Source: Cryomorphaceae bacterium
GTDB taxonomy: Bacteria; Bacteroidota; Bacteroidia; Flavobacteriales_D; Cryomorphaceae
Direction of reading: 5' to 3'
NCBI GenBank assembly: GCA_003565555.1
Contig: PXBH01000042.1
Location: 1 to 64,000 of the forward strand
Length of the DNA stretch: 64,000 nucleotides
This document shows, piece by piece, positions 50,520 through 63,916 of this stretch. Position 1 is the stretch's first letter. Each line of letters starts with the position of its first letter. The position numbers were made by a program, and so were the translations under genes. Under the pieces are notes generated by a model that was not told where the DNA came from, did not search any database, and worked only from the letters and a program-made list of their open reading frames with translations.

Positions 50520-52211
50520 TTATTTGAGCGCAAGGGCAACGGCTTCGGTCACTTCCCGTTCCGCCTTGTCGGCCGCACGGTCCAGTTCATCGGCTTCCGC
50601 GAGGGTCTTTTCGACAAATTCGCGGTCCTCAAAGTCGGCGAGATTGACCCGAACATTCATCACCGCGCCCTTCACTGCCGCCCGTGCACAGAGTGCGCCC
50701 ACGCCGGCATCGGTCACAGAGTTCGGGTTTCCTTTTTCCGCCATTGCCCGGCACAGGTCGAAGGTATCATAGGCGAGTTTAGCAATACGCAAAGGCACTT
50801 CCGCCGCATGTCTTGTGGCAGCAGCGATGGCCTGTTTGCGCGCTTCCTGCTCCGCTGCAGTGTCTTTGGGCATCCCGAAGGCTTCCATGATTTTGTTAAA
50901 TGCGGCAGTATCATCGTCCGTGGCTTTCAGCAGTTCTTCGCTCAGCGCCTGTCCCTTTTCGGCGTATTCAGAGAAGGTTTCCCAGCGGTCATCCCAGCCC
51001 CGTTTGTGCGCGCTCAGGTTGGCTACCATGGTTCCCATAGCGGCGGCCAGCACGCCGCAATAAGCGCTTACACTTCCTCCTCCGGGGGCCGGGCTTTCCG
51101 AAGCGGCCTTTTCGGCAAATGCTGTCAGGCTCAGGTCTGCCAATTTTCGGGTACTTGTATCGCGAATCATGTATTCGATGACTTTTTTCTCCGGATCGAA
51201 GGGCGCCAAGTCATCAAGGCCAAGACTCTTCACGGCTATCTTCACCTTTTCCGACTCGGGAATACCGAGGGAGCGCCGCTGCTTTTTCAGGAAGTAGTCT
51301 GCAGCCTCCGTCAGGCACCGCAGCGGCATCAGCCCCACAATTTCGGATCCTGTGACCCGAATTCCCCGCTCCCGCGCCCTTTCACATGCTTCGTCAAAGG
51401 CTTTGTGAACGGGCGTAACATTAATATCCGTCAGGTTCAGCGAAAGCTGCGCAATGCCGTATTCTTCGATGTACCAACCGATGCCTTTCACAGCTTTAAG
51501 GCTGCCGGGAATCCGTTCGGGCTCGCCGTCCGGGCCGGTCACCACCTTTCCCGTTATGGGATTGCCCTCACGCTTGATTCGTCCCGCTTCGCGGATGTCG
51601 AATGCCACGGAATTGGCGCGACGCACGGATGTGGTGTTGAGGTTGATGTTGTAGGCCACCAGAAAGTCACGTGCCGAGATGGCCGTAGCTCCCGTTTTCT
51701 TCACCTGATCGTTAAACGCTGCCGGACCGAAGTCGGGTTTCCATTCGGGTTTTGCAAGCTTATCCAAGCCTTCATATTCGCCCTGCCTGCAGTAAGCCAG
51801 GTTTTTTCGCTTGGGTTCGCGCGCGGCGTGCTCGTAAAAGTAGCCCGGAATTCCCAGCTCTTTTCCGACCCGCTCGCCGAGCTTACGGGCGTATTCGGCG
51901 GTTTCCTCCATGGAGATGGCCGATACGGGAATCAGCGGGCATACATCGGTGGCTCCCATGCGCGGATGGGCTCCGCTGTGTTTCCGCATGTCGATAAGCT
52001 CCGCTGCTTTTTTGATCAGCCGGAAGGCTGCTTCAATGACAGGCTCAGGCTCGCCCACGAAAGTAATCACCGTGCGGTTTGTACTTTTTCCGGGATCGAT
52101 ATCCAAAAGTTTTACGCCCTCGACGGTTTCAGCCTCAGCGGCAATGGCGTTGATTTTGTCCGTGTCACGTCCCTCGGAAATATTGGGAACGCATTCGATG
52201 AGTTGCTTCAT
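50520..52211 (-). CDS. ftcD: Bifunctional glutamate formimidoyltransferase / formimidoyl-THF cyclodeaminase
   Basis: 563 residues, full length. The formimidoyltransferase domain (residues 1 to about 330) shows LIECVPNISEGRD and the catalytic His82 in MRKHSGAHPRMGATDVCPLIP. The cyclodeaminase domain (about 360-563) shows LTAFAEKAASESPAPGGGSVSAYCGVL and the AMGTMVANLS helix. It transfers the formimino group from formiminoglutamate (the HutI product route) to tetrahydrofolate and releases ammonia. It probably works with hutI at 33-34 kb although the genes are 16 kb apart. A TACCTTCG box lies 39 nt upstream. Confidence 0.92.
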   Translation of the reverse strand: MKQLIECVPNISEGRDTDKINAIAAEAETVEGVKLLDIDPGKSTNRTVITFVGEPEPVIEAAFRLIKKAAELIDMRKHSGAHPRMGATDVCPLIPVSAISMEETAEYARKLGERVGKELGIPGYFYEHAAREPKRKNLAYCRQGEYEGLDKLAKPEWKPDFGPAAFNDQVKKTGATAISARDFLVAYNINLNTTSVRRANSVAFDIREAGRIKREGNPITGKVVTGPDGEPERIPGSLKAVKGIGWYIEEYGIAQLSLNLTDINVTPVHKAFDEACERARERGIRVTGSEIVGLMPLRCLTEAADYFLKKQRRSLGIPESEKVKIAVKSLGLDDLAPFDPEKKVIEYMIRDTSTRKLADLSLTAFAEKAASESPAPGGGSVSAYCGVLAAAMGTMVANLSAHKRGWDDRWETFSEYAEKGQALSEELLKATDDDTAAFNKIMEAFGMPKDTAAEQEARKQAIAAATRHAAEVPLRIAKLAYDTFDLCRAMAEKGNPNSVTDAGVGALCARAAVKGAVMNVRVNLADFEDREFVEKTLAEADELDRAADKAEREVTEAVALALK

Positions 52212-52500: not shown

Positions 52501-54198
52501 ATGAAAAACCTGTTGATCCGATTTCTTTTCCTTCAAATGTTGACAGCCGCCGGGATACTTCTCTCCGCTTTTTCCGCTTCGGCCGAAGAATGTGAGGTGG
52601 TACCGCCGGAAGGAGTAGATGTCACATCTGACGCGTATGCACAGGTCGTTCTCACCGACGCGTTTTGCTGCAACATCGATTGGGACGGTGTTTGTCAGAA
52701 TCTTTACAACAACTTTTCCGGAGGCGGCGAAGATCCTTCGGGCAATTGCGTCACACCGCCGGAAGGTGTGGATGCGGAGAGTCCCGAATACACCATGGTC
52801 ACCACTGCTTACCCACCTTGTTGCACAAGCAGTTGGGATGCATTCTGTACGGATCTTTACAACGCCTACTTCAATGCGGACCAGAATACCCAATGCGCAG
52901 AAACACCTCCTTCCGTGGATACGCTTTCGACGGCCTATCAGACCGTGATCGAAGATGATCCTTTTTGCTGCACCAATACCTGGGATGCCCTCTGTCAGCA
53001 AACCTAAGACAGCCTTGTCAACGGAGACGACGGCGAGGATCAGGAATGTGTCGAGGTGCCCGCTTCGGTTGATACGGAGTCTGACGCTTATGCCACTGTG
53101 ATTGCCTCAGATGCCTATTGCTGCAATACGGCTTGGGACACGACTTGCCAAAACCAGTACAATGCCCTTACCGGAGGTGATGATGACGATGAATCCGAGA
53201 CACCCGAAAACGGTTGTGCAGCAGTTCCCGACGGGGTGGATATCAACAGTGTAGAATACCAGGAAGTTATTGACTTTGATTCTTTCTGCTGCAATTTTTC
53301 ATGGGATGCCCTCTGTCAGATCAACTATGACAACCTCCTTTCCGGCGATCCCATGATCGGCGTCGGCACTTCTTGGTATTCTTGGTATGCTGATGATTAC
53401 GTTTTTGATTATCCCGATGAAGGTGAATGTGCCGATGTGCCCGCAGGAGTAGACACGTCAAGTACTGCCTATGCAGAGGTAATTGCCAATGACCCCTTCT
53501 GCTGCAATGTGGCTTGGGATAACTTGTGCCAAAGTGCCTATGACAACCTTACGGGCGGCGGAATGGGATCTGCAGACGGTCAGGAGGGAATAGATCCCGG
53601 CGAGCCGGGAGATTGTATCGCGCCCCCGGACAGTATCGATACCGAAAGCGAAGCCTACAGCGCGGTGATTGCCAACGACATTTTCTGCTGTTTTTTCGGC
53701 TGGGATATTCTCTGCCAAGATGCCTATGACAATTTCGGGAATGCTGAACCTGCGGATCCTGAAGATGAACAGTGTATAGAAGCGCCGGCGCATGTGGATA
53801 CTGAAAGTGATGCCTATGCCCAGACCATCGACCTGGATCCTTTCTGCTGCAACGCCGAATGGGATCAGATATGTGAGAACCTCTATAATTCGTTGAGTAA
53901 TACCTCGGGCATCGCCGCGCCTCCGACAGTACAGGCAGATGAAAAATTCAATTTCAACATTTACCCGAACCCGGCGGTGAATGTGCTGAACATCAATTTT
54001 ACTTCGGTTAGCGATGAAGAGCAGGTGATTATTGAGGTGTACAATGTGACAGGCCAAAAAGTGATGCAGACGCAAGTGATTTCTGCGCCCGGACAGCAGG
54101 AGATGATGGATGTCTCAGTCCTCGGCAACGGCTTGTACCTGATCAATGCCCGTCAGGGCAACCAAACGGTCACAAAGCAGTTTGTGGTTCAGAAGTAA
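52501..54198 (+). pseudogene. T9SS type A protein of eight Cys-rich CCxxxWDxxC repeats, interrupted by an in-frame TAA
   Basis: A continuous frame of 566 codons from ATG 52501, broken only by TAA at 53005-53007 (codon 169). It has a signal peptide (to about residue 28, FSASA), eight repeats of about 50-70 residues, each with a first Cys, a PxxVDTxSxxY segment, DxFCCNxxWDxxCQ, then xxYDNL and an acidic linker, and a type A sorting domain (IYPNPAVNVLNINF, VYNVTGQKVM, LGNGLYLINARQGN). The stop falls in repeat 3 exactly where the other seven repeats have Tyr, so one base change from TAT or TAC explains it. As written, a 168-residue exported but unsorted fragment would be made. Whether it is a true mutation or a sequence error cannot be told here. 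Confidence 0.8.
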
Positions 54199-55705: not shown

Positions 55706-57154
55706 TTATTTCGTCTTAAAGCGCATTTCCACCCTTCTGTTCAGGGCGCGGCCTTCTTCGGTCTCATTCGTGCTGTAAGGCCTGAGCTTTCCGAAAGCAC
55801 GGGTTTTGATGCGGTCGTCCTCGACGCCGTGAATGAGCAAATATTCCTTGGTGGACAAAGCCCTGTTTTCACTCAGCACCATATTGAACGCTTGCGAACC
55901 TACGTGATCGGTGTGTCCGTCTATGACTACATGAAGGTCCTGATAGGTATCCAGTAGTTCTCCTACATCGTCGAGCACTTCGATGTATTTGGCGGTGATG
56001 TTGTACTTATTGTAAGGGAAGTACACAAAGCGAATGATGGTTTCGCTGTCCAAGAGTTCCGCTCTGGTGAGGTCTTTCAATGAACGGTCGCTCTCGGCCC
56101 CTCTTTCGCGGGTCTCTATAATCAGTACCGGGTCTCTTTCCGGCTCGGTTTTGCCGGTAGCAGCGCCCGTTCCGGCTCCCGATTCGCCGCTGCCCGCGAG
56201 CAAGTCATCATCTTCCTCAGTGTCGTCTTCCTCCTCCTCCTCCTCAGCGAGCGGGGTAATGATGAGCTCACTGATATATAGGTTGGAGAGGCTGTCGCCG
56301 CGGTTGCTGCTGAAAAGCGCAGAGCTGTCTGCCGCGATGTAGAAATAGGCATCAAATTTTGAAGAATTGATCTGCTTTCCGGCGTTTACGGGTTCAGACC
56401 ATTCGGTCCAAGTGTCGTCGAGCTTTCTGGAGTAGAAGATGTCGTAGTCGCCGTAGCCTTCGCGTCCGTTGGTGGACCAAAACAGGAGACCGGAATTCTT
56501 GTCGAAGAAGGGGCTGATATCGTCTGCGGCCGTATTCACGGCGGTGCCCAAGTCCTGAGGCGGAGACCACGTATCTCCGCCGTCTTCGGAGAGGCTCACA
56601 AAAATGTTGTTTGTCGTGTCGGTTCCCTGACGGGGCAGGGTCCATAGGATGAAGTCCTCGTCCGGACTCACGTAGGCGCTGTAAAAATTGCCTTCTGCCT
56701 CGAGTCCGGGAACATGGACTGCCGTAGCGTCGTCCCATTTTTTAGTAACGTCATTCAAGTCGCTCCGTGACAGGCCCGGTAGCAATGTATTTTTTTCTCC
56801 GCGTCGGTTGAGCAGGTAGAGTCGTTTTCCGCCTTTAGCTACGCCCGTCACCACATTGTTGGTGCGGTCGTTGAGTTCGCGGATTTTTCCCGCCTCGGTG
56901 TATGCCCCGTCTGTCTTTGTGCTCACCCAGATATCCTGTCCGGCAAATTTTCCGCCCGTGTTTCGGGGGTGGTAGGTGCGTGCGAAGTACAGCGTTTGGC
57001 CGTCGGGAGCAAGGATGGGAAAACTTTCTTCAGCTTCGGAATTCACTTTGGAATTGAGCCGCTGCGGTGCGGCGAAGCTGAGCGTGTCATCTTGTGCATG
57101 CAGTGTGAGTGCGGCTCCCCCGGCAATCAATATCGAAAGTAGAAATGGCTTCAT
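55706..57154 (-). CDS. PD40-propeller OmpA-family protein
   Basis: 482 residues: a signal peptide (FLLSILIAGGAALTLHAQ), a PD40/TolB-like propeller (about 35-290: ESFPILAPDGQTLYFARTYH, YSAYVSPDEDFILWTLPRQ, DISPFFDKNSGLLFWSTNGR, FDAYFYIAADSSALFSSNRG), an acidic/Ser/Gly linker (EEEEEEDDTEEDDD), and an OmpA peptidoglycan-binding domain (about 375-482: VYFPYNKYNITAKYIEVL, HVVIDGHTDHVGS, GRALNRRVEMRF). It is the last gene of a leftward operon with a PorP/SprF protein (6-bp gap) and a giant HYR T9SS protein. It probably tethers that complex to peptidoglycan. Confidence 0.87.
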   Translation of the reverse strand: MKPFLLSILIAGGAALTLHAQDDTLSFAAPQRLNSKVNSEAEESFPILAPDGQTLYFARTYHPRNTGGKFAGQDIWVSTKTDGAYTEAGKIRELNDRTNNVVTGVAKGGKRLYLLNRRGEKNTLLPGLSRSDLNDVTKKWDDATAVHVPGLEAEGNFYSAYVSPDEDFILWTLPRQGTDTTNNIFVSLSEDGGDTWSPPQDLGTAVNTAADDISPFFDKNSGLLFWSTNGREGYGDYDIFYSRKLDDTWTEWSEPVNAGKQINSSKFDAYFYIAADSSALFSSNRGDSLSNLYISELIITPLAEEEEEEDDTEEDDDLLAGSGESGAGTGAATGKTEPERDPVLIIETRERGAESDRSLKDLTRAELLDSETIIRFVYFPYNKYNITAKYIEVLDDVGELLDTYQDLHVVIDGHTDHVGSQAFNMVLSENRALSTKEYLLIHGVEDDRIKTRAFGKLRPYSTNETEEGRALNRRVEMRFKTK

Positions 57155-57160
57155 GGGCGG

Positions 57161-58174
57161 TTAATTTTTTCTGTCGAAGCGAACGCCGAGTACGATCTCG
57201 TGGCTCCCGCTGCTCAAGTTGTTGATTTGTGAGGTGAGGTAGTCATAAGCGTAGCCTACCCGCAGCCAATCATTAATGTGGAGTCCCGCCAATACGGAAA
57301 CTGCGTCCTCGTAGCGGTAGGAAAGGCCGAAAAATACCCGCTCGGCATAGTCCGCCCGCACGTTGATATCGAAAGAGGGCGGAGCCGGGCCGCGGAGCTT
57401 GAAGATGGTACTCGGCGTAAGGTCCAAATTTTCACTGAGCGTAAAGCGGTAACCTGCCATAGCGAAATGGTGCACCGCGAGGCGCGTCTCACTGAGGCCT
57501 GCAGGCGTCGCGGCATTGCCGAGTTCTATCTGATTTTCTCCGATCTGGTATACGGAGTAGCCCGCAAACAGGCGGTCGCTGTAGAACATCAGACCTGCGT
57601 TGATGTCAAAAAGATTGGCGCGTGTTCCGTTCGCGATAAAATCGTTGAAGGTATTGTCATTCGGATTTTCGAGAATGGCATTGCCCGCTCCGAAGTTCAT
57701 ACCGTACCACCCCATGCTGGTTCCCGCTGCGAGGTAGTATTTTTCTCCGATGGGGTGGTGGTAAGCATAGCTCGCCATGACAGAACTTCTCTGAAAAAGG
57801 CCGTATTCATCAACAGCTGCCAGCCCGCCCACGACATGTTTTGATTTGCGCTCCGTAATCCCGCTGCTCATCATTTTTCGGTTGCTGATCGGAATCCCGT
57901 ATGCCAAGCCCTGCGCTTGCGGTTTACGGCCGATGTTGACCGTACCTCCTACGTAGTACGTTTGGGGCGCCCCGTCAAAACCCGTCCACTGCTGTCTGAA
58001 TCCCATGGCCAAATCCACATCTTGGTGCATACTCGATGCTGCGGGATTGATCACATAAGGGTTGAGCATGTACTGGCTGAATTGCGGAAGCTGCTGCGCC
58101 CTGATCTCGCCGGGGAATGTCACGGCACAGGCGGCAATCAGGAGGATGCTGTATGCGGTAAAATGCTTTCTCAT
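57161..58174 (-). CDS. PorP/SprF-family outer-membrane protein
   Basis: 337 residues. After the signal peptide comes the diagnostic start QLPQFSQYMLNPYVINPAASSMHQDVDLAMGFRQQWTGFDGAPQTYYVG. The rest consists of beta strands with YHHPIGEKYYLAAGTSMGWYG, DINAGLMFYSDRLFAGYSVYQIG and a last strand ending in LGVRFDRKN. PorP/SprF proteins act with T9SS type B substrates, serving as a surface anchor or docking partner. It lies directly downstream (3-bp gap) of the HYR protein with a type B sorting domain, matching that role. Confidence 0.9.
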   Translation of the reverse strand: MRKHFTAYSILLIAACAVTFPGEIRAQQLPQFSQYMLNPYVINPAASSMHQDVDLAMGFRQQWTGFDGAPQTYYVGGTVNIGRKPQAQGLAYGIPISNRKMMSSGITERKSKHVVGGLAAVDEYGLFQRSSVMASYAYHHPIGEKYYLAAGTSMGWYGMNFGAGNAILENPNDNTFNDFIANGTRANLFDINAGLMFYSDRLFAGYSVYQIGENQIELGNAATPAGLSETRLAVHHFAMAGYRFTLSENLDLTPSTIFKLRGPAPPSFDINVRADYAERVFFGLSYRYEDAVSVLAGLHINDWLRVGYAYDYLTSQINNLSSGSHEIVLGVRFDRKN

Positions 58175-58177
58175 GGC

Positions 58178-61100
58178 TTAGCGAATGATATTGACCGTTC
58201 CGTTGAGGTTCTCTTTGCCCTCGGTATTGTAATCGATGATGTAGTAGTAGGAGCCTGCCGGCAAATCTTCTCCGTTGCGGCGTCCGTCCCAAGGCTCGTT
58301 GTAACCCGTTGAGCTGAATACCTCGTTGCCCCAACGGTTGTAAATGGCCACCACTGCATTCGGATATTGATCAATGCCCGGGATATTCCACACATCGTTT
58401 ACGCCGTCATTGTCAGGTGTAATGGTATTGGGCAATTCCCGAAATACACGAACGATCAGCGAATCGCTTACCGAGCAGCCGAGCGGTGAGGTGTAAGTGA
58501 CGAGATACTGCGTGGTTTCTTCAGGTGATGCAGTGGGGTCCGCACATGCGGTGCAGGACAGGCCCTCTTCCGGTTCCCAGAGAAAATTTCCGCCGGGGGG
58601 CAGGCCCGTGGCGAATAATTGCACGGAGCCGCCTGCGAAGATCAATTCATCCTCCCCGGCGTTTACGGTTACGCCTTCTTCTACCGTAATGGTCACGGTA
58701 TCGGTTTCAAAATCACAACCGTTGAGGGGATCGATGAACCAAACAAATACATTCTGCCCCACTTCAAGACCTTCTATCTCCGTATTAGGATCATTTTCGT
58801 CTGCTATAATCCCGAAGCCGCTTTCCAATATCCAGGTGCCCAGCGCATCACCGGGATCATTTCCGTTCAGGAAAAAACTAGTTGCATCACAAATATTGCG
58901 GTCGTTGCCGGCATCTGCGCGCGGTGCGGTGACCAAGCGCTCGATTACAAAGGTGCATTCTGCCGTGTTTCCGCTCGCATCAACGGCTTCAAAACTCACT
59001 TCGGAAAACCCGAGCGGGAAAGAAGTTCCGCTTTCCGGCCCTCCCGTTTGCACCACCTCAACCACTTCGCAGTTGTCGCTCGCTTCGGGAAAGTCGAAGT
59101 TTACAATCATCTCACAGGATTGCAGGGTGTCCGGGCAGTCAAATACCGGAGGGATGGTGTCGATGACATTCACCGTGAAGCTGCATGCTGCGGTGTTTCC
59201 CGAAGGGTCAGTCGCTTCAAATACCACCGCATAGGTTCCCGGGCCGGCGCCGGAACCGCTCTCGGGACCTTCCGTCAGTGTCACTTCGGCGGAGCAGTTG
59301 TCTTCTGCAAGGGGCGTGTCGTAGATGATCTCAGCTTCGCACCCGTCTTCTCCCACGGCGATGACAAGATCATCCGGACATGCCGTGAACACAGGGGCTT
59401 CTTCATCTGTCACCGTTACGGTGTAGGTGCATTCGGAGGTATTCCCGAATTCATCTTCCGCCGTGAAGGTGAAAACGGTCTCTCCCAAGAGCAAGAGGCT
59501 GCCCGAATCCGGTCCGGCCGTTTGCGTTACGGTTACCGTTTCCGTGCAATTGTCAGACGCTTCGGGAAGGTCAAAACTGTAGACGGCTCCGCATTCCCCG
59601 GTATCGTTTGCCAGGTTCAGGTCATCCGGACAGGCGAGGAATTCCGGGGGTTCTGCATCGTTTACAGTCACGGTAAAGGTGCATTGGACAGTATTGCCGG
59701 ACAAATCGGTGGCTTCGAAGGTCACTTCGGTCGCTCCCAATGGGAATTCTGCACCGGACGCAGGCCCCTCGATGAGCGCAAGGCTTACATCTCCGCAAGC
59801 GTCTTCCGCTTCCGGAAGGTCGTAATTCACGATTGCTGAGCAGGCCCCCGGGTCGTTGTTGACCGCAATATCGTCAGGACAGGTAATCACGGGCGGCACA
59901 TCCTCGGTCACGGTTACCGTAAATGAGCATTCCGCGGTATTCCCGTTTACATCCGTGGCCGTAAAGGTCACCGTAGTTTCTCCCGCCGGAAATGCAGACC
60001 CGCTCGCAAGGCCCGCGGTGAGTTCAATATCGGCTATGCCGCAATTGTCGGTTGCGGTCGGGTCATCATAGGTCACCGTGGCATCACAATCTCCCGAGGC
60101 GGCATCGATCAAGATGTCATCGGTGCAGGTGATTTCGGGAGCTTCATTGTCTTCAACGGTTACTTCGATGGTACACGTTGCCGAATTTCCGGCTGCATCC
60201 GTAGCTTCGAAGATCAATTCAACGGCACCGACCGGGACAAAATCACCTGAATTCGGTCCCGAAACCAAAACGGCCGTCAGACTTCCGTCGCAATTGTCCG
60301 CCACATCGGGCAGGTCATAGGTCAAGAAGGTTCCGCATTCTCCCGGATCCGTATCCGCGGTGACGGGGCTTTCCGGGCATTCAAATACGGGCGGTTCCGT
60401 ATCGTTTACCGTCACGCTGAAGCTGCAATCGGCGGTATTTCCCGAAAGATCAGTCACCGTGTAGGTCACCGTGGTGGTACCTACCGGGAAGAAATCTCCG
60501 CTTTCGGGACCTTCCGTAAGTTCGGTCACTGCCCCGGGGCAGTTGTCGCTACCTTCGGGTACCGGGTAATTCACCACGGCACCGCATTCGCCCGGATCAT
60601 TGTCGGTCACGATGTCGTCGGGGCAGGTGATTTCCGGAGGGGTAGACTCTGTTATGGTGACCGTGAAGCTGCAGGTACCGATATTGCCGGCCGCATCGGT
60701 GGCTTCATAGGTCACTGTGGTTACGCCGACCGGAAATAATTCGCCGGGTGCTATACCTTCTGTTTGCTCCGTGGATACTACTTCGCAGTTGTCGACGGCA
60801 GAAGCGGGAGGGAAGTTGACTTCGGCCTCGCAGGTGCCGTCTAAGGTGATATTGATGTCAGAAGGGCAGGTCAATTCCGGGGCTTCCTCGTCGGTTACCG
60901 TCACGGTGAAACTGCATTCTGCCGTGTTTCCGGATTCATCCGTGGCGAGAAGGGTCACCGTGGTGGTACCTACCGGGAAGAAATCTCCGCTTGCGGGACC
61001 TTCGATAACTTCTGTGGTGATATCGCCGCAGCCGTCCGTGTCAGGTGCAGGGTAGGAGACTGTCGCTCCGCAGTCGCCGGGATCGTTGGCGGTTGTGATG

Positions 61101-63916
61101 TTTTCCGGACAGGTGATTACCGGCGGAGCGTCCGTGGTGACGATCACATTGAAAGTACATACCGACAGGTTTCCGAATTCATCTTCTGCGGTAAATTCTA
61201 TTTCCGTGCTTCCTGCCGGGAAAGTCGATCCGCTTGCGGGACCTGCTGTCTGGGTCACGGTGACCTCAGAGCAGGGGTCCGTGGCTGTAGGGGCGTCGAA
61301 GGTTACTACGGCATCGCAGCTGCCTTCATCGGCTGCCACGGTAATATCATCGGGGCAGTCGAATTCCGGCTCATTCGTTTCGATCAGGGTCACCGTGAAG
61401 CTGCACTCCGCGGTATTTCCGGAGGCATCCGTCGCTTCATAGGTCACGGTATATACGCCTGCCTCCACAGTCTCTCCGCTTGCGGGACCTTCGGTGAGGC
61501 TTACGTTTACGCCGGGGCAATTGTCTGTCGCGGTCGGAATGTCATACGTGATTTCACCATCGCACACGCCTTCGGGAAGAGTGATTTCCACATCTTCGGG
61601 GCAGGTGATTTCAGGATCTTCTTCGTCGAGTACTACCACCGAGAAGGTGCAGACGGAAGCATTACCGGCTTCGTCCGTGGCGGTAAATTCGATTTCGGTT
61701 GCACCCACGGGAAAGGTTGAACCGCTCGCGGGTCCGTCGGTTTGTGCAATGCTGCCGCCCGGGCAGTTGTCTGTGAACTCCGGCGCATCAAAGGTTACCG
61801 TGGCCTCGCAGGTTCCCGGAGCTGCGACAGCCTGAACTTCTTCGGGGCAGTCGATGGCGGGCGGGGTATCATCAGAGACGATGATGTTAAACGTGCATAC
61901 GGCCGTATTCCCGAATTCGTCCGTAGCAGTGAATTCGACCTCTGTACTTCCTTCCGGAAAAGTCGATCCGCTCGCGGGTCCGCCGGTTTGGGTCACCGTG
62001 ACCTCCGAGCAAAGGTCGGTGGCAGTCGGTGTGTCGAAAGTGACCACGGCATCACAGCTGTCTTCATCGGTTCCGGCGTTGATGTCATCGGGACAGTCGA
62101 ATTCAGGTTCGGTAGTTTCAATCAGGGTTACCGTAAAGCTGCACTCAGCGGTATTCCCTGAGGCATCCGTCGCTTCATAGGTTACGGTATATACGCCCGC
62201 CTCCGCCGTCTCACCGCTTGCGGGACCTTCGGTGAGGCTCACGCTTACCCCCGGGCAATTGTCGGTAGCGGTCGGAATGTCGTAGGTGATTTCACCCTCG
62301 CATTCGCCGTCGGGCAGGGTGATTTCCACATCATCGGGGCAGTCGATTTCAGGATCCTCTTCGTCGAGTACGACCACCGAGAAGGTGCAGACGGAAGTAT
62401 TACCGGCATCGTCCGTGGCGGTAAATTCGATCTCGGTCGCTCCTACGGGAAAAGCAGATCCGCTTACAGGCCCATCGGTTTGTGTAATGCTGCCACCGGG
62501 GCAGTTGTCTGTAAACTCGGGTGCGGCAAAGTTTACCGTGGCTTCGCAGGTTCCGGGATCAGCGCTGGCCTCGAGGTTTTCGGGGCATTCAATTTCGGGG
62601 GCTTCGTTGTCCTCGACGGTCACCTCAAAGGTGCACTCCGCGGTATTGCCGGCGGCATCGGTTACGGTGTAGGTTTCTACAGTCGTTCCGATCGGGAAGG
62701 TGCCGCCCGAACCGATGCCCGACGTGAGTTCGGTTACGGCACCCGGGCAGTTGTCGGTGCCTTCGGGCGGGGTATAGCTCACCACTGCGGTGCACTCGCC
62801 CGGGTCCGTATCGGCGGTGATATTATCCGGGCAGGTGATTTCAGGGTCTTCGTCTTCGTTCACCGTCACGGTAAAGCTGCATTCGGAGGTGTTCCCCGCG
62901 GCGTCGGTCGCTGTGAAGGTTACCGTCGTTTCTCCTGCCGGAAAGACTTCTCCGGAGGCCGGTCCCGCAGTTTGTTCGAAGGTCTCGCCGGGGCAGTTGT
63001 CGGAAGTGACGGGATCGGGGAAAGTTACTACAGCATCACAATCCCCGGGGTCAGCGGTAACAGTGATATCATCCGGGCAGGTGATAACGGGCGGTGCTGC
63101 GTCCACCACGTTGACTTCAAAAGTGCAGGTAGCACTGTTTCCCGCTGCATCGGTTACCGTGTATTCTTCCGTGGTGGTTCCTATCGGAAAGGTGGCTCCC
63201 GATCCGAGTCCTCCTGTGAGGTTGGTCTCTGTGGCAGAGCAGGGATCGCTGCCCACGGGCGCCGTGTAGTTCACCACGGCTTCGCAGTCATCGGTTACCT
63301 CTACGGTGATGTCGTCGGGGCATGTGATCACGGGGTCAGATACGTCATTGACAAAAATGACCACCCGACAAAAGGCCACATTGCCTTCGGCGTCAATGGC
63401 CTGAAAATCAACGCTGTTTTCACCTACGGGAAAGGCTGAGCCGCTGGGGAGGCCGCCGAATTGGAACACATCGGCTACAAAGCAATTGTCAAAGGCATCG
63501 GGAATATCGAAGAATACTACTGCGGAGCAGTCGTTGGCGTCCGCATCGACAATAATGTCATCAGGGCAGTCAAAAGTGGGGTCCTCTTGGTCTTCCACAA
63601 TGATAAAAAACGAGCAATCGTCTGAATCTCCCTCGTCGTTGGTTACAGTGTAGGTAATTTGCGTAACTCCCACAGGGAATTCCGACCCGGGAGGAAGCCC
63701 CTGTGTTAATTCCGTCGTGATATTCGTACCACTTCCGGTACCTTCGGGGGCGGTGTAGTTGACAACGGCACCGCATTCTCCGAGGTCATTGGGCTGAGTG
63801 ATATCTCCGGGACAGGTGACGGAAACCTGTGCATTTACTTGAATGATAAAGCCGAGGCAGAATGCGAAGGAAGTGATGAGTCGCGTGCTGAGGAGGGCTC
63901 TGTAGAAATGATCCAT
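58178..63916 (-). CDS. Giant HYR-repeat adhesin-like protein with type B T9SS sorting domain
   Basis: 1,912 residues: a signal peptide (to about residue 29, FIIQVNAQ) and then 20 tandem HYR repeats of about 82 residues to about 1640, each starting with ITCPDDI-like sequence and containing TDNCPG and TDAAGNTAECSFTVTV. Two PKD/Ig-like modules follow (ADAGNDRNICDATSFFLNG; AGEDELIFAGGSVQLFATG). The last about 85 residues are a gliding-associated C-terminal domain (PNTITPDNDGVNDVWN, IYNRWGNEVFSS, GSYYYIIDY). It is predicted to be a long, fibre-like surface protein. Residues 442-687 and 688-933 are a recent duplicate pair. A perfect -7 box precedes the gene, which leads an operon with PorP/SprF and OmpA genes. 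Confidence 0.9.
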   Translation of the reverse strand: MDHFYRALLSTRLITSFAFCLGFIIQVNAQVSVTCPGDITQPNDLGECGAVVNYTAPEGTGSGTNITTELTQGLPPGSEFPVGVTQITYTVTNDEGDSDDCSFFIIVEDQEDPTFDCPDDIIVDADANDCSAVVFFDIPDAFDNCFVADVFQFGGLPSGSAFPVGENSVDFQAIDAEGNVAFCRVVIFVNDVSDPVITCPDDITVEVTDDCEAVVNYTAPVGSDPCSATETNLTGGLGSGATFPIGTTTEEYTVTDAAGNSATCTFEVNVVDAAPPVITCPDDITVTADPGDCDAVVTFPDPVTSDNCPGETFEQTAGPASGEVFPAGETTVTFTATDAAGNTSECSFTVTVNEDEDPEITCPDNITADTDPGECTAVVSYTPPEGTDNCPGAVTELTSGIGSGGTFPIGTTVETYTVTDAAGNTAECTFEVTVEDNEAPEIECPENLEASADPGTCEATVNFAAPEFTDNCPGGSITQTDGPVSGSAFPVGATEIEFTATDDAGNTSVCTFSVVVLDEEDPEIDCPDDVEITLPDGECEGEITYDIPTATDNCPGVSVSLTEGPASGETAEAGVYTVTYEATDASGNTAECSFTVTLIETTEPEFDCPDDINAGTDEDSCDAVVTFDTPTATDLCSEVTVTQTGGPASGSTFPEGSTEVEFTATDEFGNTAVCTFNIIVSDDTPPAIDCPEEVQAVAAPGTCEATVTFDAPEFTDNCPGGSIAQTDGPASGSTFPVGATEIEFTATDEAGNASVCTFSVVVLDEEDPEITCPEDVEITLPEGVCDGEITYDIPTATDNCPGVNVSLTEGPASGETVEAGVYTVTYEATDASGNTAECSFTVTLIETNEPEFDCPDDITVAADEGSCDAVVTFDAPTATDPCSEVTVTQTAGPASGSTFPAGSTEIEFTAEDEFGNLSVCTFNVIVTTDAPPVITCPENITTANDPGDCGATVSYPAPDTDGCGDITTEVIEGPASGDFFPVGTTTVTLLATDESGNTAECSFTVTVTDEEAPELTCPSDINITLDGTCEAEVNFPPASAVDNCEVVSTEQTEGIAPGELFPVGVTTVTYEATDAAGNIGTCSFTVTITESTPPEITCPDDIVTDNDPGECGAVVNYPVPEGSDNCPGAVTELTEGPESGDFFPVGTTTVTYTVTDLSGNTADCSFSVTVNDTEPPVFECPESPVTADTDPGECGTFLTYDLPDVADNCDGSLTAVLVSGPNSGDFVPVGAVELIFEATDAAGNSATCTIEVTVEDNEAPEITCTDDILIDAASGDCDATVTYDDPTATDNCGIADIELTAGLASGSAFPAGETTVTFTATDVNGNTAECSFTVTVTEDVPPVITCPDDIAVNNDPGACSAIVNYDLPEAEDACGDVSLALIEGPASGAEFPLGATEVTFEATDLSGNTVQCTFTVTVNDAEPPEFLACPDDLNLANDTGECGAVYSFDLPEASDNCTETVTVTQTAGPDSGSLLLLGETVFTFTAEDEFGNTSECTYTVTVTDEEAPVFTACPDDLVIAVGEDGCEAEIIYDTPLAEDNCSAEVTLTEGPESGSGAGPGTYAVVFEATDPSGNTAACSFTVNVIDTIPPVFDCPDTLQSCEMIVNFDFPEASDNCEVVEVVQTGGPESGTSFPLGFSEVSFEAVDASGNTAECTFVIERLVTAPRADAGNDRNICDATSFFLNGNDPGDALGTWILESGFGIIADENDPNTEIEGLEVGQNVFVWFIDPLNGCDFETDTVTITVEEGVTVNAGEDELIFAGGSVQLFATGLPPGGNFLWEPEEGLSCTACADPTASPEETTQYLVTYTSPLGCSVSDSLIVRVFRELPNTITPDNDGVNDVWNIPGIDQYPNAVVAIYNRWGNEVFSSTGYNEPWDGRRNGEDLPAGSYYYIIDYNTEGKENLNGTVNIIR
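61118..62593 (-). repeat. Tandem duplication of a 738-bp block (three HYR units)
   Basis: Two consecutive blocks of exactly 738 bp (61118-61855 and 61856-62593) encode residues 688-933 and 442-687 of the HYR protein. They start with the matching IECPEN/IDCPEE and continue through APEFTDNCPGGSI, EEDPEI(D/T)CP(D/E)DVEITLP, TATDNCPGV(S/N)VSLTEGPASGET and FDCPDDI. By eye, nucleotide identity in the compared stretch is close to nine in ten, so the duplication is fairly recent. Confidence 0.8.

Follow-up and report, generated by a model that had tools for sequence, protein, structure and literature searches.

It is common for a bacterial genome to contain numerous null alleles of accessory genes, and the typical nonsense pseudogene or null allele of this sort consists of one point mutation in a dispensable gene whose frame is otherwise intact. 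A gene in the window, by which we mean the whole 64,000-nucleotide stretch of DNA analysed, fits this description and departs from it in nothing out of the ordinary, its stop lying at a near-invariant Tyr. The second system to be compared is the type A cargo of the T9SS, whose export requires a C-terminal sorting domain. The window gene encodes such a domain, which exceeds the curated cut-offs of both PF18962 (55.9 bits, cut-off 27) and TIGR04183 (48.8 bits, cut-off 23); unlike ordinary cargo, however, it has the domain 3′ of the stop, where translation together with the export signal is not expected. The signal-like N-terminus (read from the sequence) and the T9SS tail are thus not in one uninterrupted frame, the TAA lying between them. 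The best relatives are found in two genomes of the same order but another family (G008 and G019), in which arrays of 514 and 537 residues carry eight repeats of the same kind and a T9SS-like tail, as does the window gene, but are uninterrupted and stand in different gene neighbourhoods. The features of the window gene are collected in Table 1.

Table 1. Elements of the interrupted repeat gene, numbered from the first nucleotide of the window.
Feature	Position	Strand	Remark
Interrupted gene: signal-like N-terminal segment, eight Cys repeats and T9SS type A sorting domain	52501..54198	+	
Repeat 1	52588..52716	+	profile match
Repeat 2	52744..52869	+	profile match
Repeat 3, TAA inside	52891..53013	+	profile match; sole one containing a stop
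In-frame TAA, codon 169, conserved Tyr position of repeat 3	53005..53007	+	
Repeat 4	53044..53169	+	profile match
Repeat 5	53215..53337	+	profile match
Repeat 6, unit modelled by AlphaFold2	53425..53550	+	profile match
Repeat 7	53611..53736	+	profile match
Repeat 8	53770..53895	+	profile match
T9SS type A C-terminal sorting domain (TIGR04183 / PF18962), intact, 3′ of stop	53959..54192	+	

Reading of the frame from the ATG at 52501 to the terminal TAA at 54196-54198 confirmed what had been proposed for this locus, namely an otherwise open frame whose sole internal stop is the TAA at 53005-53007. All eight repeat units were matched by the repeat profile in a single frame, and GC3 is 0.548 upstream of the stop and 0.553 downstream, the four neighbouring genes having values of 0.60-0.64. 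In-frame ATG codons were not found near the stop; the only in-frame starts there are poor GTGs, the first at 53056, and a convincing ribosome-binding site was not found for them. Because GC3 is equal on both sides, the repeats share one frame and no plausible restart is present, the sequence between 52501 and 54198 is read as one gene cut by a stop, and a mere chance stop is rejected, since homology runs on past it, composition does not change and no in-frame ATG lies nearby. An arrangement of two functional genes, with a secreted form of 168 residues and a second product restarted at the GTG 51 nt past the start of the stop codon, could draw on the presence of that in-frame codon, but it is highly implausible: besides the lack of a nearby ATG and of a convincing ribosome-binding site, the restarted product would have no signal peptide despite its T9SS tail, and the stop falls within a repeat core.

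The residue replaced by the stop is strongly conserved. Alignment confirmed Tyr at the corresponding position in each of the protein's seven remaining repeats, encoded by TAC in three and by TAT in four, although the description of this residue as following CQxx applies to five of the seven, repeats 2 and 8 having CTxx and CExx, respectively. Across 57 distinct motif matches at 23 loci, the position is occupied by Tyr in 54, by Phe and Ala in one each, and by a stop in one, the last being repeat 3 of the window gene. The near-invariance of the Tyr and the TAC and TAT codons of the other repeats support the proposed origin of the TAA from a Tyr codon by one base change; the sequence downstream of the stop, including repeats 4-8 and the sorting domain, is likewise intact, as had been stated.

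With a probability of about 0.75, we take the locus to carry a real null allele, a nonsense change of an ordinary kind and fairly recent date that costs the protein its T9SS tail. In an accessory gene whose product is a repeat protein exported by the T9SS, a Tyr codon of repeat 3 would have been turned into a stop by a single mutation, so that translation would end after 168 residues and yield a product with the export signal, two complete repeats and part of repeat 3. Such a product would have no sorting domain and should therefore fail to reach the surface; it may be left in the periplasm or degraded, and the allele would be a loss of function, either a pseudogene of recent origin or a null allele that is still segregating, probably carried by living cells. 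Other T9SS-tail genes in the same genome also appear damaged, which counts in favour of a null allele, whereas the absence of any sign of decay in the gene other than the one stop counts against it.

The main rival is an error of base calling or consensus building, in a fragmented and probably metagenome-derived assembly, with the gene intact in the cells; it is unlikely but deserves serious consideration. The assembly consists of 237 contigs (96.7% complete), the gene is otherwise wholly intact, and no other clear internal stop emerged from a limited screen, over 460 kb of the genome, for coding composition on both flanks of a stop, all of which speaks for an error. On the other hand, the site lies deep within an 80-kb contig, no homopolymer is present there, and, where consensus sequence is well covered, nonsense errors occur less often than true null alleles. 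Misassembly between repeats is also unlikely because their DNA identity is about 60-71%; near the site, the longest uninterrupted match between repeats spans about 18 nt, and the sequence immediately 3′ of it is unique to repeat 3. The 460-kb screen was not a census: it relied on a weakly discriminating codon model, with the best 40 candidates judged by eye, and the candidates other than 53005 among these look like same-frame adjacent genes or antisense frames, so the uniqueness of the stop is supported rather than proven. Of the 136 T9SS tail matches in the genome, not one is interrupted by a stop.

Programmed read-through or a reassigned TAA, by which the full protein would be made, perhaps at a low level, might explain why the repeats and the sorting domain 3′ of the stop are intact, yet the decoding apparatus makes it very improbable. 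Terminal stops of long open reading frames in 460 kb of the genome comprise 96 TGA, 65 TAA and 25 TAG codons, so that many genes terminate in TAA; the genome encodes both release factors, RF2 with an SPF motif and an RF1-type protein whose PQT fits PxT; and no UAA-reading anticodon was seen among the about 30 tRNA genes read (31 found, a possibly incomplete set), the one tRNA-Tyr having the anticodon gta. These results support the earlier argument against codon reassignment. In addition, the RNA 3′ of the stop has no more stable a fold than shuffled sequences (z -0.05) and matches no Rfam element, and no relative has a stop at this position. A related scheme, in which low-rate read-through of TAA inserts Tyr or another residue and one gene thereby supplies a short periplasmic form together with a rare surface-anchored one, is even harder to credit.

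The original prediction also considered a polymorphism resembling phase variation, for which the sequence gives no support: the change is a point substitution, the site has no homopolymer or simple repeat, and neither simple runs at the site nor direct repeats offer a sequence able to toggle the frame. Toggling by slippage or exchange is implausible because the DNA of the repeats is too divergent. A very recent mutation had been offered as a further option, and it and a base-call error are the two still in contention. The intact remainder of the frame bounds the age loosely, at most about 15-30 neutral substitutions since loss (95% bound), or 0.9-1.8% of the gene; this estimate takes as input one stop, no second stop and no change at 47 conserved repeat residues, varies with the assumed indel rate and presupposes a real stop.

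The distribution of the gene bears on whether its loss could be borne. The repeat gene is single-copy in its genome, where other matches are to the tail only, and it is absent from the corresponding locus in both of the same-genus genomes compared. From these two facts, its loss should be tolerable. In both same-genus genomes, an acyltransferase-like gene lies upstream of the DEAD-box helicase homologue, and the formiminotransferase-like neighbour (window 50520-52211) is on a different contig; in-frame TGA codons in two DEAD-box helicase matches proved to be merely their terminal stops. A search of 150 relatives gave matches in 14 genomes, the source genome included, and about 140 repeat matches were distributed over 36 of the 399 genomes of the order, with the stop inside repeat 3 of the window gene as the only one among them. 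Given this and its absence in the same-genus genomes, the gene is accessory and patchily distributed. The repeat was found at window 52588-53895 and at loci L018, L019, L021-L024, L033, L034 and L046, and a single such repeat occurs within a different protein of genome G001; a search of plasmid records found nothing. Intact, stop-free homologues exist, as a nonsense pseudogene or null allele requires, and the case raised earlier, that relatives might all split the gene at this point, does not apply, as no relative does so.

The nonsense interruption itself is ordinary and most likely reflects a single chance mutation. It matters little: one accessory surface protein has probably been inactivated in the population that was sequenced, and automatic annotation will show two unrelated-looking genes at this locus.

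The repeat family is the more useful by-product, may be the more interesting part and possibly merits its own description. Its motif is CC-x3-WD-x2-C-x3-Y, in units of about 42-47 residues; no Pfam or NCBIfam family and no PDB sequence matched it, and a literature search found nothing on it, so that the family is apparently undescribed so far. An AlphaFold2 model built from repeat 6 and seven other rows has a mean pLDDT of 92.8 and three short helices, with the conserved Tyr in the last (residues 34-44); a Foldseek comparison of this model with the PDB found no counterpart, a negative result of little weight for a model of 47 residues. To judge from its cysteines, each unit may be a disulphide-stabilised module of an extracellular protein. 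In a Phycisphaerales record (L047), a similar repeat has Ala in place of the Tyr, and the wider motif therefore extends beyond Bacteroidota.

Several further loci were noted in the genome and the window. One T9SS tail (L113:4688-4879, G000:C113) stands as an orphan; it has about 63-72 residues and is nearly identical to another with which the contig begins (L113:1-363), and to judge from this likeness it is a partial duplication or gene remnant. Elsewhere (L116:2-684 and 758-1363, G000:C96), transposase-like frames that overlap, resemble IS630 on visual inspection and are apparently frameshifted adjoin a 201-residue open reading frame with a T9SS tail. This frame has no obvious signal peptide and may be a cargo gene interrupted by an insertion. 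In the window itself, positions 55706-63916 of the minus strand encode an HYR-like repeat protein of 1912 residues whose C-terminus is of the gliding-motility type, and after it a PorP/SprF-like and then an OmpA/PD40-like protein (all by eye), the last of which is also found beside the helicase in genome G001.
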